NCBI RefSeq assembly: GCF_003667345.1
Contig: NZ_RCWF01000002.1
Span: 1-64,000 of the forward strand
From: Poseidonibacter antarcticus
GTDB taxonomy: Bacteria > Campylobacterota > Campylobacteria > Campylobacterales > Arcobacteraceae
Direction: 5' to 3'
DNA: 64,000 nucleotides
Position 1 is the stretch's first letter. Every line of letters starts with the position of its first letter. A program made the translations under genes and the position numbers. A model generated the notes under the pieces. That model was not told the DNA's origin, did not search any database, and saw nothing but the letters and a program-made list of their open reading frames with translations. Of the stretch, positions 27,615 through 33,798 are shown one piece after another.

Positions 27615-27647
27615 TTTGACTAAATATATTTTAATATGGAAATGTTC

Positions 27648-28745
27648 ATGAACTACTTGAATGACTTAAAAAAGATTATTAATATCAACTCATTTACAAA
27701 GAATAAAGAAGGTGTTGATAAAGTTGGCCATATAATGTCTCAATGGCTTAAGGATATTAGTTTTGAAGAAACAATCTATAAAAGAAAAGAAATTGGAAAC
27801 CATCAATTATTTACCTCCAGAAGAAAAAATCATTTAAAAAATATATTGTTATTAGGTCATAACGATACTGTATTCCCTCCAAATACATTTGAAGGTTTTA
27901 CTGAAGATGAAACTTGGGTTTATGGTCCAGGTGTTTGTGATATGAAAGGTGGAAATATAGTTGCACTTGAATCATTAAGAAATATATATAAAGAAAATAA
28001 AGAAATCTCAAATATTGACTTTTTATTAGTTTCGGATGAAGAAAGTGGTAGTGATGATTCAAAATTCGTAACTTTGGATATTGCAAAGAATTATGATTAT
28101 TGTTTTGTTTTTGAAGCTGCAGGTAAAAATTTAGAAGTTGTAACAGGAAGAAAAGGTGTTGGAACTTATACTATTAATATTGAAGGTATTCCAGCACATG
28201 CAGGAACATCGTATACAAAAGGTGTAGATGCGAATCTTGAAGCCTCATATAAATTACAAAAATTATCAGCTTTAACAAATTTAGAACTTGGAACGACAGT
28301 TAATGTTGGAAAGATAGAAGGTGGAATTGGAGCAAATACTATTTCTCCAAAATGTGAAATGATTGTTGAAATTAGATATACAACTAATAAAGAACGAGAT
28401 AGATTATTATCATCTTTAAATGAAATTGTAAAAACTTCATATGTAAAAGGTACTAAATCTAAACTTGATGGTTTAATTCAAAGAGATGTTATGGAAGCAA
28501 ATGAGAATCAGAACATTTTGATAACTCAACTTGAAAAAATAACTAATACAAAAATACCAACTGAAAAAAGAGGTGGCGTTAGTGATGCAAATCATGTATC
28601 AAGTTGTGGCGTAACTACTCTTGATGGTTTTGGTCCTTTTGGAGATGGCGATCATACAAAAAAAGAAAGAGCCTTAAAAGAAACATTTGAAAAAAGAATT
28701 AAGATGATGACAAGTATCTTAAATTTTTTCCAAAAACAAAATTAA
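27648..28745 (+). CDS. M20-family carboxypeptidase (glutamate carboxypeptidase-like)
   Basis: About 365 residues, cytoplasmic, two zinc ions expected. The ligands are visible: LLGHNDTVFPP, GPGVCDMKGG (bridging Asp), SDEESGSD (catalytic Glu pair), FEAAG, and FGDGDHTKKER with the last His. The dimerisation lid (about 170-285) contains GIPAHAG. It is closest to the CPG2-like carboxypeptidases that remove C-terminal Glu from peptides or folates. I choose ATG 27648 because TGGA lies at the right distance; ATGs at 27636 and 27642 are alternatives. It is the first gene of a five-gene unit with two ATP-grasp ligases. Confidence 0.85.
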   Translation: MNYLNDLKKIININSFTKNKEGVDKVGHIMSQWLKDISFEETIYKRKEIGNHQLFTSRRKNHLKNILLLGHNDTVFPPNTFEGFTEDETWVYGPGVCDMKGGNIVALESLRNIYKENKEISNIDFLLVSDEESGSDDSKFVTLDIAKNYDYCFVFEAAGKNLEVVTGRKGVGTYTINIEGIPAHAGTSYTKGVDANLEASYKLQKLSALTNLELGTTVNVGKIEGGIGANTISPKCEMIVEIRYTTNKERDRLLSSLNEIVKTSYVKGTKSKLDGLIQRDVMEANENQNILITQLEKITNTKIPTEKRGGVSDANHVSSCGVTTLDGFGPFGDGDHTKKERALKETFEKRIKMMTSILNFFQKQN

Positions 28746-28762
28746 TTTTATAAGAGGATATT

Positions 28763-29671
28763 ATGAGAAATAGAAAAATTGGGATGTGGTTATATCAAAA
28801 TGGTGGTGGAGATAAAATCCAAAAGAAAATTATCAAGAAATTAAATGAAAGAAATATTGATGTTATTTCGGGTATTAATTTAAGAGATGCTGTCGCAAAA
28901 AATAGTCATATTCTTTGGAATGACATAAAACTTGATAAGTTAGACCTATTCTTTTCATATAATGCTGGTGAACAAACACAATACCAAATGTATTTAGCAA
29001 AAGCATTAAATAATGTTCTTCCTATGATTAATCCATTTGAAGCCTTTGAGTTAACAGAAGATAAATTCCAAACTTCTTTTTTATTAAGAAAACATGGTGT
29101 TGCAACTGCAGATTATAAATTATGTCATAGAGATGATAATCATCATCTACATGCTGTTATGAAAAAATGGGATAAAATGGTATACAAACCAACTGATGGT
29201 TGGGGTGGTGTTGGTCTTACAAAAATTGAAAATCAAGAAACACTTGATATGTTAATGCCATTTTTAAACCAAATGGACTTAAGATATTTTTATGTTGAGA
29301 AATTTGTAGATTACGATAATACAGATTTTAGAATTGATATTGTTGATGGTCAATATCTCTCTTGTTACGGTAGAAAGGCATCTGGAACTGATTGGAGAAC
29401 AAATGTTACAAGCGGTGGTAGTGTATTTTTAAGAGAACCAGATAAAGAAGTAATCGAATTGGCACTAAATGCTACTAAAGTTTCAGGATTAGATATAGCA
29501 GGTGTTGATATAATATATGATAGAAAAAAAGAGGAGTATGTAGTTTTAGAAGTAAATGGTATTCCAGCATTTGCAACACCAGAGCAAGAGAAAATGGGGT
29601 TAAATTTTAATGACAAGAAAATTGATTTAATAGTTGATTTAATTGACAGAAAAACAAAAAAAACAAAATAA
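28763..29671 (+). CDS. RimK-like ATP-grasp ligase
   Basis: A 302-residue ligase. The ATP-grasp core runs from about 100 to 290: glycine loop KPTDGWGGVGL, hinge VEKFVD, NTDFRIDIVDG, the substrate/phosphate motif TNVTSGGS, GVDII and the metal ligands LEVNG (Glu263, Asn265). All the parts for forming an amide or peptide bond through an acyl phosphate are there. Family members include RimK, LysX and MptN, which add Glu or other amino acids to a protein or small molecule. The acceptor cannot be read. It is 17 bases after the M20 gene and 26 before the second ATP-grasp gene. Confidence 0.85.
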   Translation: MRNRKIGMWLYQNGGGDKIQKKIIKKLNERNIDVISGINLRDAVAKNSHILWNDIKLDKLDLFFSYNAGEQTQYQMYLAKALNNVLPMINPFEAFELTEDKFQTSFLLRKHGVATADYKLCHRDDNHHLHAVMKKWDKMVYKPTDGWGGVGLTKIENQETLDMLMPFLNQMDLRYFYVEKFVDYDNTDFRIDIVDGQYLSCYGRKASGTDWRTNVTSGGSVFLREPDKEVIELALNATKVSGLDIAGVDIIYDRKKEEYVVLEVNGIPAFATPEQEKMGLNFNDKKIDLIVDLIDRKTKKTK

Positions 29672-29697: not shown

Positions 29698-31209
29698 ATG
29701 AGTAAATTACCAAAATTAGGATTTCTATACCTTGATTACGTTTTAAGATTCTTTGATCATTCAAACTTCAAAGGTTGGCCAGATAAAATTGAAACTGTTA
29801 CTTATCACTGGGGAAAAGATAAACAAAGATTTATCAATGAAGTAAGAGCTAAAAAAATTGATGTATTAATTGGTAATATTCCTGCAACAGCATATGAAAC
29901 ATTTAGAGAAATTGCTAAAGAAATGCCACATATTAGATTTGTTCCTTCTTTAGAGACACAGTTTCCAAATAAATCTAAAGAGAATGTTACATTATTTTGT
30001 GAAAAACATGATATTGCAATTCCTAAAACTAAAATTTTTCATAATGAAAAGCAAAAGGCTTATGATTATTTAAAAAATGAAGCTAAATATCCTCAAATTA
30101 TTAAAAAAAGTTATGGTCCTTCAAATTATGGTGGATATTATGTTCATAAAGCTGATAATTTTAAAGAAGCATACGATTTACTTGAAAAAGAAAAATATGA
30201 CCCAATTTATACTCAAAATGGAATTGATTTAAAATATTCTGGTGACTTAAGAGTAATGTTAATTGGACATAAACCAGTTTGTGCATTCTGGAGATTCTCA
30301 GGTGATGGAGAATGGATTACAAATACATCTCAAGGTGGAACAATGTCTTATGAAAATGTTCCAATGAATGCACTTGAGCTTGCTGTAAAAGCTTCAAAAG
30401 CTGCAAAAGCTGAGTACTGGGCTTGTGATATTGCAATTGATAAAAATGATGATAAACCATATATTTTAGAATGTGCTACAGCCTTTGCTGCCTTCCCTTA
30501 TATTAGAGATTGGATTTGTGAATACTTAATGTGGGACTTCTCTAATGGTAAATACAAAATGCCTTATGTACCTTTATATTCATGGGTTGAATTAGGTAAA
30601 ATTGATCCATCATTATTAAGAACAATGAGACATATTGGATTTAGTAAATATACTCCATCTTGCGATGGAGCATATTTTATAAATGAAAAAGACAGTTCTT
30701 TTGATATGGAGAAAACAATTTTAAATGATCCTAGTGATTATCCAGAAGAGTATTCATATGAAAAACTTCCAGCTTATGTACAACTTGAAGATATCCAAAC
30801 AGAAAATAGTAATGGTTTAGAACTTACTAAAATTAATTTTAATACTGCAACCTTAACAGATATTATGACTTTACATGGTATGGAAGAAGAATTAGCCTTA
30901 GATATTCAAGAATTTATTGGTGAAAATATAATTACTGATCCAAGTGATTTACTTGACTTAGAATCAATAGATGAACAGATGATTAAAACTTGGGATAACA
31001 ATATTGCTGATATGAGAATTAATATAAATAATACTGATCAAGATACATTAAAGAAAATCAAAGGTATTGGTGCAAAACTTGCAAAAATAATTTTAGATTT
31101 CAAAGAAGAGATTGAACATTTTACAGATTTAGACCAATTAAAAGAGATTGAAGGTATTGGTAAAAATAAGTTAGCTCAATTGAAATCTAGACTAAAAATA
31201 GGAGAATAG
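29698..31209 (+). CDS. ATP-grasp protein with two C-terminal ComEA-like HhH repeats
   Basis: A 503-residue protein. Residues 1-300 are a RimK-like ATP-grasp (YWACDIAID, TNTSQGGT), but the metal motif ExN reads ECA (Glu258, Ala260), so catalysis may be lost or altered. A linker follows, then two tandem helix-hairpin-helix repeats of about 60 residues: KINFNTATL with LHGMEEELA (from about 378) and ININNTDQD with IKGIGAKLA and IEGIGKNKLAQL (from about 440). These repeats resemble those of ComEA and usually bind the DNA backbone or other proteins. The first repeat has lost its glycines. Cytoplasmic. It follows the active-looking ATP-grasp gene. Confidence 0.82.
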   Translation: MSKLPKLGFLYLDYVLRFFDHSNFKGWPDKIETVTYHWGKDKQRFINEVRAKKIDVLIGNIPATAYETFREIAKEMPHIRFVPSLETQFPNKSKENVTLFCEKHDIAIPKTKIFHNEKQKAYDYLKNEAKYPQIIKKSYGPSNYGGYYVHKADNFKEAYDLLEKEKYDPIYTQNGIDLKYSGDLRVMLIGHKPVCAFWRFSGDGEWITNTSQGGTMSYENVPMNALELAVKASKAAKAEYWACDIAIDKNDDKPYILECATAFAAFPYIRDWICEYLMWDFSNGKYKMPYVPLYSWVELGKIDPSLLRTMRHIGFSKYTPSCDGAYFINEKDSSFDMEKTILNDPSDYPEEYSYEKLPAYVQLEDIQTENSNGLELTKINFNTATLTDIMTLHGMEEELALDIQEFIGENIITDPSDLLDLESIDEQMIKTWDNNIADMRININNTDQDTLKKIKGIGAKLAKIILDFKEEIEHFTDLDQLKEIEGIGKNKLAQLKSRLKIGE

Positions 31210-31212
31210 TTT

Positions 31213-33798
31213 TTGAAACAACTTTATAGATCATATGATGAATCTACTCATATTTTCAAAGATTTAGAAAATAGATATCCTAATTATATTAAATTAGAGT
31301 CAATTGGAAAGACTTGGGAAGAAAGAGATATTAATTTAATCACAATCTCAAAAGATGTAAAAACAGCGCATACTAGACCTGCGTTGTTTTTTACAGGAAC
31401 TATTCATGCAAGAGAATGGGTTGGTCATGAATTAGCAATTGATTTTACTAAATATGTATTAGAAAATTATGAAAGTGATCCCACACTACAAGCATATTTA
31501 GAATATGCTACTATTTATATGGTTCCTTGTGCAAATCCAGATGGATATGAATATTCAAGAAATCATTTTTCTTTTTGGAGAAAAAATAGAAGAGTAAATG
31601 CTGATGGTTCACATGGTGTTGATTTAAATAGAAACTTTCCTATAGGTTATGTAAAGTCTACAATGACAACTTCAAATGTTTATGGTGGTCCTGAACCTTT
31701 TTCTGAACCAGAAACTAGAGCTTTAAGAGATTTTGTAGAAGTACATCCAAATATTTCTATAGCTTTAGATTATCACTCACAAGGAAATGTATTTTTCCCT
31801 GCACATGATTTTAGACATGAAGATACTATTGATACAACTGATATGAATACTTTATGTGCAAATATGGCTGAAGAAATTAGAAAAATTTCTGGTCGTGAAT
31901 ATGGAATACATCAAGGTAAGCCACCTACTAAACTAATATCAGGTTCGGGTAGAGAATTTTATCACTCAAAAGGAATAATTTCAAGTGTTGTAGAAGTTGG
32001 TACAAGAAACATTTCTGATTATATGGGTGATATGGATGAACACTTAAGAGAACATATTCCAGCATTACTTGCAGCTGTTAAAGAAGTACCAAATTATGAT
32101 AAAAATAATTCTACAAAAAGAGTAGATTCTTTTGAAGTAACAGAAATTGGATCGAACCATGTAAATCTTGAATGGAAATATAATATAGAAGATGACGTAT
32201 TTTTCGAAATTTATAGAAGTTTAAAAGATAAATCATTTTGTAATAGTTCAAACTTAATCGCAAGAACACAAAAATTAGAGTTTAATGATATAAACCTTCA
32301 AAGCAATAGAGATTATTATTATAATATTAGAGTTGTTAATAAAAAAACTGGAATAAAATCACCATTTTATCCTCAAATTATATTAAGAACAGATCCTGAA
32401 TATGATGAATTTAGTAAAACTTATTATTCAGCACCAAGTACTACAGGATATGTTGCAGAACTTTTAAATAATAATAGTAAACATTTTGGGAATAACTCTT
32501 TATTTGTAGGAATTGATGAAAATAAAGGTATTTCTTATGCAATTATTACTATAAATCTTGGCTCTTTACCTGATGATGCAATTATTAAATCAGCATCATT
32601 TAATCTATATCCAATTAATAGAGTCTCAACTACTATTGAAAAGTATGGTGAATGGAATGTAGGTATTGTTAATCAAGAAACTATGGGAGATATAACAGAT
32701 TTTGATGATGTTAATAATATGGAAATCATTGAATATATTGGTCGACCAACAGCATCTCATCAACTAACACAAGGTATATGGAGAACATGGGAACTTTCAG
32801 GAATTGAGTGTGCCTGTCTTCAAGAAGTTGCTAAAAATAAACAAGTAGTATTAAGAATAGAAGGTCCTAAAGAGTTAGTAATAGGCAGAACTAGACAAAT
32901 GATGCAATGGGATATTGGTTATGGTAAATATGGTTATGGACTTCCTTATAGACCAAGATTAGAACTTACTTATACTCTTAAACCTACTGTTACAACAATA
33001 TATCCTAAATCTGTACATACAATAAGTGAACATGGGATAAAAAATGATGAAGTTACTTCAGGATTTGATGAAAAAGGTAAAAAAATTTATTCTACATTTG
33101 AATTTAATACTTCTTCTCTCCCTCCATATGATGAAACATTTATAACAAGTGGATTCTTTGAACTAAATTCTACAAAAAATTATATTAAAGACGATATACG
33201 ATTTCATTTAGAATTTGTTGATGAAAATATTGACCAAGATTATGAAAGTATTACAAATAGAGAGATAATTCAGAATATTGGTTATGATGTAAGTGCAAAT
33301 GAGCTTAAAAATAATCAAACACAATATTTTGCATTTGATACTTTTTCTGAAATTACTTTAAATGAAAAACTTAAGAATAAAGATGATTTAGCTTTTGTTT
33401 TAAAACCAACATCATCAAAAAAAGCTATAAAAGACAAAACTGTATCATGGGAAACAAAAAAACAGTCTTTAAGCCCAAAATTAATTCTTGAACATATACC
33501 AAAAAGAAGAAAAGCACTTGAACAAGTTAAAAATGCACAATTAATAATGGAAAATGGGAAAATTAAGATAACTTGGGAAAATCCTAAACACCATGATTTA
33601 AAAGGTGTAAAAGTTATTAAAAATGCATATAGAAAACCATACTCAACACATGATGGTCAAAAACTTTTTGCTGGAATGGATAATTATACATTTGATGATT
33701 TTGGTGCTACTGATATTGATAAATATTATGCAATATTTACTTATGATGAAGTTCCAAATTATTCAAAACCTATAATATTAAAATATAAAGCAAGATAG
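31213..33798 (+). CDS. M14 zinc carboxypeptidase fused to FN3-like and DNRLRE-like domains
   Basis: An 861-residue protein. The M14 domain (about 1-295) keeps zinc ligands in THAREW-type HAREW and DYHSQ, the substrate Arg/Asn in GVDLNRNF and the catalytic Glu in SVVEVG. Then come an FN3-like domain (about 300-395), two beta-rich DNRLRE-like units (about 400-590 and 590-755; the first has LFVGIDENKG and LGSLPDDAIIKSASF), and a final FN3-like domain. Such appendages are usual in secreted enzymes, yet there is no signal peptide: TTG starts the protein directly in the peptidase fold, behind GGAG in the end of the upstream gene. It is the fourth gene of the operon. Confidence 0.85.
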   Translation: MKQLYRSYDESTHIFKDLENRYPNYIKLESIGKTWEERDINLITISKDVKTAHTRPALFFTGTIHAREWVGHELAIDFTKYVLENYESDPTLQAYLEYATIYMVPCANPDGYEYSRNHFSFWRKNRRVNADGSHGVDLNRNFPIGYVKSTMTTSNVYGGPEPFSEPETRALRDFVEVHPNISIALDYHSQGNVFFPAHDFRHEDTIDTTDMNTLCANMAEEIRKISGREYGIHQGKPPTKLISGSGREFYHSKGIISSVVEVGTRNISDYMGDMDEHLREHIPALLAAVKEVPNYDKNNSTKRVDSFEVTEIGSNHVNLEWKYNIEDDVFFEIYRSLKDKSFCNSSNLIARTQKLEFNDINLQSNRDYYYNIRVVNKKTGIKSPFYPQIILRTDPEYDEFSKTYYSAPSTTGYVAELLNNNSKHFGNNSLFVGIDENKGISYAIITINLGSLPDDAIIKSASFNLYPINRVSTTIEKYGEWNVGIVNQETMGDITDFDDVNNMEIIEYIGRPTASHQLTQGIWRTWELSGIECACLQEVAKNKQVVLRIEGPKELVIGRTRQMMQWDIGYGKYGYGLPYRPRLELTYTLKPTVTTIYPKSVHTISEHGIKNDEVTSGFDEKGKKIYSTFEFNTSSLPPYDETFITSGFFELNSTKNYIKDDIRFHLEFVDENIDQDYESITNREIIQNIGYDVSANELKNNQTQYFAFDTFSEITLNEKLKNKDDLAFVLKPTSSKKAIKDKTVSWETKKQSLSPKLILEHIPKRRKALEQVKNAQLIMENGKIKITWENPKHHDLKGVKVIKNAYRKPYSTHDGQKLFAGMDNYTFDDFGATDIDKYYAIFTYDEVPNYSKPIILKYKAR

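Follow-up and report, generated by a model that had tools for sequence, protein, structure and literature searches.

A RimK-like ATP-grasp protein lacking the ExN asparagine and bearing helix-hairpin-helix repeats in a conserved ligase and peptidase module of Poseidonibacter antarcticus

Analysis of the window, a 64,000-nucleotide stretch of DNA from the marine Campylobacterota member Poseidonibacter antarcticus, indicates that the gene at positions 29698-31209 encodes a real and conserved variant of the RimK-like ATP-grasp kind, which has lost the asparagine of the ExN motif, carries a C-terminal helix-hairpin-helix (HhH) tail, and resides in a module of ligases and peptidases. Rather than encoding a broken enzyme, this ligase-HhH gene probably belongs to an undescribed module for adding and removing amino-acid tags. 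Support for the module comes from the co-occurrence of its genes, their conserved order, the retention of the partner genes in two genomes (G051 and G180) where the ligase-HhH gene has moved, the invariance of active-site residues, and residue R247 of the M14 carboxypeptidase. The fusion protein, its parts, and the neighboring gene products are encoded as follows.

27636..28745, + strand: M20 metallopeptidase, carboxypeptidase-G2-like, 369 aa (PF01546, PF07687)
28763..29671, + strand: canonical RimK-like ATP-grasp ligase with LEVN, 302 aa (PF08443, E 5.4e-19)
29698-31209, + strand: ATP-grasp/HhH fusion ORF, 503 aa
29698..30474, + strand: N-terminal domain and RimK-type ATP-grasp domain of the fusion protein, residues 1-259 (PF08443 at 102-259)
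30469..30516, + strand: signature ECATAFAAFPYxRDWI replacing ExN, residues 258-273 (96-sequence alignment)
30598..30669, + strand: conserved linker, candidate docking segment, residues 301-324 (invariant positions, low pLDDT)
30829..31005, + strand: HhH1, acidic, without GhG hairpins, residues 378-436 (23 bits to PF12836, predicted HhH)
31006..31206, + strand: HhH2, ComEA-like, with two GIG hairpins, residues 437-503 (PF12836 at 55.7 bits, Foldseek)
31213..33798, + strand: M14 zinc carboxypeptidase, 861 aa (PF00246, E 1.4e-58)

A preliminary description had read the fusion protein as an ATP-grasp domain followed by C-terminal HhH repeats, and the Pfam matches and structure prediction agree with this architecture. 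PF08443 matched residues 102-259 (E 2.3e-15; 57.2 bits, cut-off 21), and the score for the NCBIfam model rimK_fam, 66.5 bits, fell below the cut-off of 143.4. The nearest folds of the ATP-grasp part in a fold search were RimK, LysX, and ArgX, the latter two of which were also among the best PDB profile matches, and the first graspetide ligase appeared only at rank 47. HHH_3 (PF12836) matched two stretches of the protein (E 7.5e-20), the best of which spanned residues 440-499. HhH1 (approximately residues 378-436) was weak by sequence, scoring 23 bits against a PF12836 cut-off of 27. When modeled in isolation, the C-terminus was nonetheless predicted to form two HhH units with a mean pLDDT of 94, and Foldseek matched HhH2 to ComEA 8dss (rmsd 1.4 over 64 columns, probability 1.00, E 4.8e-3). 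The INxNTA start originally ascribed to both repeats is present in the first (INFNTA), but the second begins with ININNTD. Seven residues of the linker (K301, L307, R308, R311, F315, S321, and D323) were invariant in the family alignment, and segment 302-334 had a pLDDT of <50 in the single-chain prediction of the fusion protein. It is possible that linker 301-324 serves in docking, as it is conserved yet lacks a confident predicted structure in the single-chain model, as a docking segment would look.

At the position where the canonical neighbor (28763) has E263-V264-N265 (LEVN), the fusion protein has E258-C259-A260, located at the end of a strand spanning residues 254-260; this difference had been noted previously. 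Homologues were drawn from 80 loci of a species-genome scan, plus further ones from searches of relatives, and the resulting alignment of 96 sequences covered Campylobacterota, Gammaproteobacteria (Thiomicrorhabdus, Cycloclasticus, and Paraglaciecola), and Desulfuromonadales. Ala260 was identical in 96 of 96 sequences, as were E258 to F266, Y268, and R270 to I273, with P267 present in 95. The suggestion that the other copies might retain the asparagine, pointing to a sequencing error here, is contradicted by its absence from every copy, and both sequencing error and single-strain decay are ruled out by the invariance of Ala260, which reflects neither error nor chance. The presence of the same residue across three groups implies that loss of the asparagine is a fixed family trait of the ligase-HhH proteins. 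In contrast, ExN was present in all 68 co-encoded RimK partner ligases, and it was kept in the 10 nearest outside proteins that were checked, of which nine belonged to the same phylum as the Desulfuromusa locus and the tenth to Gammaproteobacteria. The edge of the family within Campylobacterota was sharp, with intact matches at ~1e-190 or better and no continuum below. Profile-profile alignment placed a two-residue gap after Glu-Cys (LEC--ATAFAA versus LEVNGIPAFAT), and the asparagine may have been deleted together with a neighboring residue rather than substituted, although it is absent either way. The geometry of the metal site was judged from alignment and secondary structure only.

At most loci, the genes are ordered M20 peptidase, RimK-like ligase, ligase-HhH gene, and M14 carboxypeptidase, and this order is kept across Campylobacterota, Gammaproteobacteria, and Desulfuromonadales, with the M20 gene inverted in Cycloclasticus, Paraglaciecola, and some other loci. 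Among 298 Campylobacterota genomes, the ligase-HhH gene was found in 32, the RimK partner in 31, and the M14 gene in 32; all three were present in 30 genomes and none in 264, giving hypergeometric co-occurrence values of ~1e-37 when genomes are treated as unrelated. The two ligase genes were adjacent in 28 of the 30 genomes holding both. Their shared occurrence and adjacency support the earlier proposal that the fusion protein is a partner of the 28763 ligase, and indicate a dedicated one. In G051 and G180, the ligase-HhH gene has moved beside efp, with the RimK partner and M14 genes still in the genome. Two metallopeptidases in one set could also indicate a loose peptide-scavenging neighborhood without a joint pathway, but this is highly improbable, as the near-perfect co-occurrence largely excludes it, the order is kept, no transporter was recognized in the conserved set, and neither peptidase has a visible signal peptide. 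A promoter and terminator scan identified 52 promoter-like sites compared to 49.7 in shuffles, and thus not above shuffles.

Several loci depart from the usual arrangement. Six Sulfurimonas-type genomes have the ligase-HhH gene immediately downstream of efp, which encodes elongation factor P, and outside the cassette (L105:7364-9398, L108, L112, L114, L127 in G051, and L130 in G180). Two other cassettes (L053:5355-8531 and L071:6714-8615) each contain two RimK-like ligases upstream of the ligase-HhH gene. One genome without the RimK partner and M14 genes harbors a ligase-HhH remnant with four stops (G095:C1:157122-157472), which looks like joint loss of all three genes.

The preliminary description had also suggested that the fusion protein, a ligase-like scaffold, may be inactive. 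This view is at odds with the conservation of its active site, as seven ATP- and substrate-site residues (Lys136, Asp183, Arg185, Arg199, Asn209, Asp244, and Glu258) were invariant in ~95 homologues that share about 55 to 88% identity, and drift would be expected if the site had decayed. The retained ATP-grasp residues aligned with those of the canonical partner by profile-profile alignment (region 104-264). In the RimK of Pseudomonas, K141, E178, I180, F210, S212, and N213 contact the nucleotide, while N262 and R189 contact the terminal glutamate of a bound chain (PMC10092738). On a motif-based mapping that involved no structure superposition, N262 would correspond to the asparagine of ExN and R189 to the retained R185. 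Loss of the asparagine would therefore be predicted to affect the substrate-carboxylate and metal side while sparing the ATP pocket, from which we infer an altered substrate or metal arrangement and not a dead site. Alternatively, the protein might bind ATP without performing ligation, acting as a regulatory or scaffold subunit that places the canonical ligase on its substrate via the HhH tail. This would fit with an ExN asparagine that is missing in every copy but always kept in the partner, with the adjacency of the two genes (28 of 30 genomes), and with the adapter-like nature of the tail. We nevertheless consider it unlikely, given that the other catalytic residues, with metal ligands D244 and E258 among them, are more strictly conserved, being invariant, than nucleotide binding alone would be expected to require.

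The partner enzymes provide an indication of what might be ligated and removed. The best solved relative of the M20 protein is carboxypeptidase G2 (1cg2; full-length match, E 1e-40), with which it shares the M20 fold and a complete metal site, and its metal-site and catalytic residues were invariant in 65 of 65 sequences. The 28763 ligase is closest to MptN (2.5e-40) and RimK-family Glu ligases, although below curated cut-offs. The M14 protein aligns with carboxypeptidases A and T, and R247 falls on carboxypeptidase A residue 255, a specificity position occupied by Arg in 60 of 61 sequences and Lys in the other. Unlike carboxypeptidases O and G2, neither the M14 nor the M20 protein has a visible signal peptide, and despite this the long C-terminal region of the M14 protein (window 32400-33798) resembles DNRLRE domains, which usually belong to surface proteins. 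Carboxypeptidase O likewise carries a basic residue at position 255, where Arg255 confers specificity for acidic C-termini (PMC9925722). Collectively, the similarity of the M20 protein to carboxypeptidase G2, the arginine at position 255 of the M14 protein, and the similarity of the ligase to MptN and RimK point to the addition and removal of glutamate.

We tentatively propose, with a confidence that falls a little short of even, that the four-gene module extends a substrate at its carboxyl end with glutamate, or with a different acidic amino acid, and then removes the added unit. The canonical RimK-like ligase (28763) would act on the adding side together with the ligase-HhH protein as a second ligase, and the M20 and M14 metallopeptidases would act on the removing side. 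The ligase-HhH protein would bind ATP and probably ligate with a metal and carboxylate site that lacks the ExN asparagine, while its tail and conserved linker may dock it to the substrate or to partners. Glutamate as the added unit is suggested by the relatives of these enzymes and by one M14 pocket residue in the alignment. However, because the lost asparagine matches, by motif, the N262 that contacts the terminal glutamate, the ligase-HhH protein may act on some other substrate or on none.

There is precedent for a ligase and a trimming protease in one operon in RimK and RimB (PMC10092738). The module resembles Pseudomonas RimABK in its RimK-type ATP-grasp fold and in the pairing of ligase and peptidase in one operon, but differs in having two ligases, of which one lacks ExN and bears an HhH tail, in employing M20 and M14 metalloenzymes where RimABK has the RimB protease, and in co-existing with an S6 that has no acidic tail. 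Ribosomal S6 C-termini from 16 genomes, with and without the cassette, displayed no E. coli-type Glu-Glu end and no cassette-linked difference, and S6 is a poor candidate for the substrate for lack of both an acidic tail and a tie to cassette presence. The LysW amino-group carrier pathway also employs a ligase and an M20-type peptidase, and its LysX and ArgX ligases are among the closest folds and best profile matches of the ligase-HhH protein; in contrast with that pathway, no LysW-like carrier, kinase, or reductase was seen in the conserved set. A further possibility, which we judge to be rather unlikely, is that the ligases act in sequence to make a small soluble peptide or cofactor side chain that the peptidases degrade and recycle, with no protein being tagged. 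RimK relatives do act on cofactors, MptN on tetrahydromethanopterin and MyfB on methylofuran (PMC8141765), and the lack of a visible signal peptide on either peptidase fits a cytoplasmic metabolite. However, an HhH tail would be unusual on an enzyme of small metabolites, and no biosynthetic gene beyond the ligases and peptidases was recognized in the conserved set.

The tail itself is variable. On a maximum-likelihood tree of the core, tails sort largely by clade, with two HhH domains in clade A, only the first, acidic HhH in clade B (proteins of ~440 aa), and a different, HHH_5-type tail at the same place in clade C. A few exceptions on this tree, such as L026 and L094, look like truncations within the A group. 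In one member from Sulfurimonadaceae, the second HhH domain alone is present, preceded by a Lys-rich linker, and in a Cycloclasticus genome (L110:7986-9632) DUF1643 (E 1e-39) stands in place of the HhH tail. An HHH_3 domain with GhG hairpins was found in HhH2 only. HhH1 has a mean net charge of -12 in clade A, and the sole HhH of clade B is degenerate, without GhG hairpins, and has a mean net charge of -6. While HhH2 resembles the ComEA HhH domain in fold and hairpins, the tail differs from ComEA in being fused to a ligase, in having no membrane segment, in its acidic, degenerate HhH1, and in not being conserved across the family. A separate arrangement was observed in one Arcobacter genome (L043:12226-13589), where the M14 gene is followed by a second RimK-like ligase and then a 145-aa protein consisting of the two HhH domains, with no ATP-grasp domain.

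These observations bear on the earlier proposal that the tail serves as a DNA adapter. The tail is exchangeable, and a single strict nucleic-acid function for it cannot hold; given the tails of clade B and of the DUF1643 protein in Cycloclasticus, DNA tethering is rejected as a family-wide role. What stands of the proposal concerns the clade of the window, where nucleic-acid contact is possible, HhH2 being ComEA-like. A role of the tail in recruiting the ligase to nucleic acid (DNA or RNA), for instance so that a protein bound there is modified, is on the whole quite improbable. The two GIG hairpins of HhH2, its basic mean net charge (+6), and the presence of another HhH type in clade C would be consistent with such recruitment, but HhH2 in the window is nearly neutral (+1), clade B has no HhH2, Cycloclasticus has DUF1643, and ComEA-like HhH folds also function in protein contacts, as in PsbU of photosystem II. 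Returning to the proposed module, a more specific version, in which two RimK-type ligases that differ from each other write C-terminal glutamate tags and two carboxypeptidases dedicated to glutamate erase them, with the ligase lacking the asparagine active and steered by exchangeable HhH tails, is one that we regard as doubtful.

Papers on graspetides and on CDC123 ATP-grasp proteins do not mention the ligase-HhH architecture, and a viral fold library yielded only generic ATP-grasp matches and one ComEA-like protein. No description of the module was found in the open-licence literature, and judged on that literature the module is apparently undescribed. If the proposed function is correct, the module would constitute a bacterial system for reversible glutamylation, with a logic like that of RimK and RimB and of tubulin glutamylation and with all of its parts in one operon, in hosts that are culturable, such as Poseidonibacter. 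It would also imply that an entire family can do without the ExN asparagine, a residue regarded as a hallmark of activity in ATP-grasp ligases.
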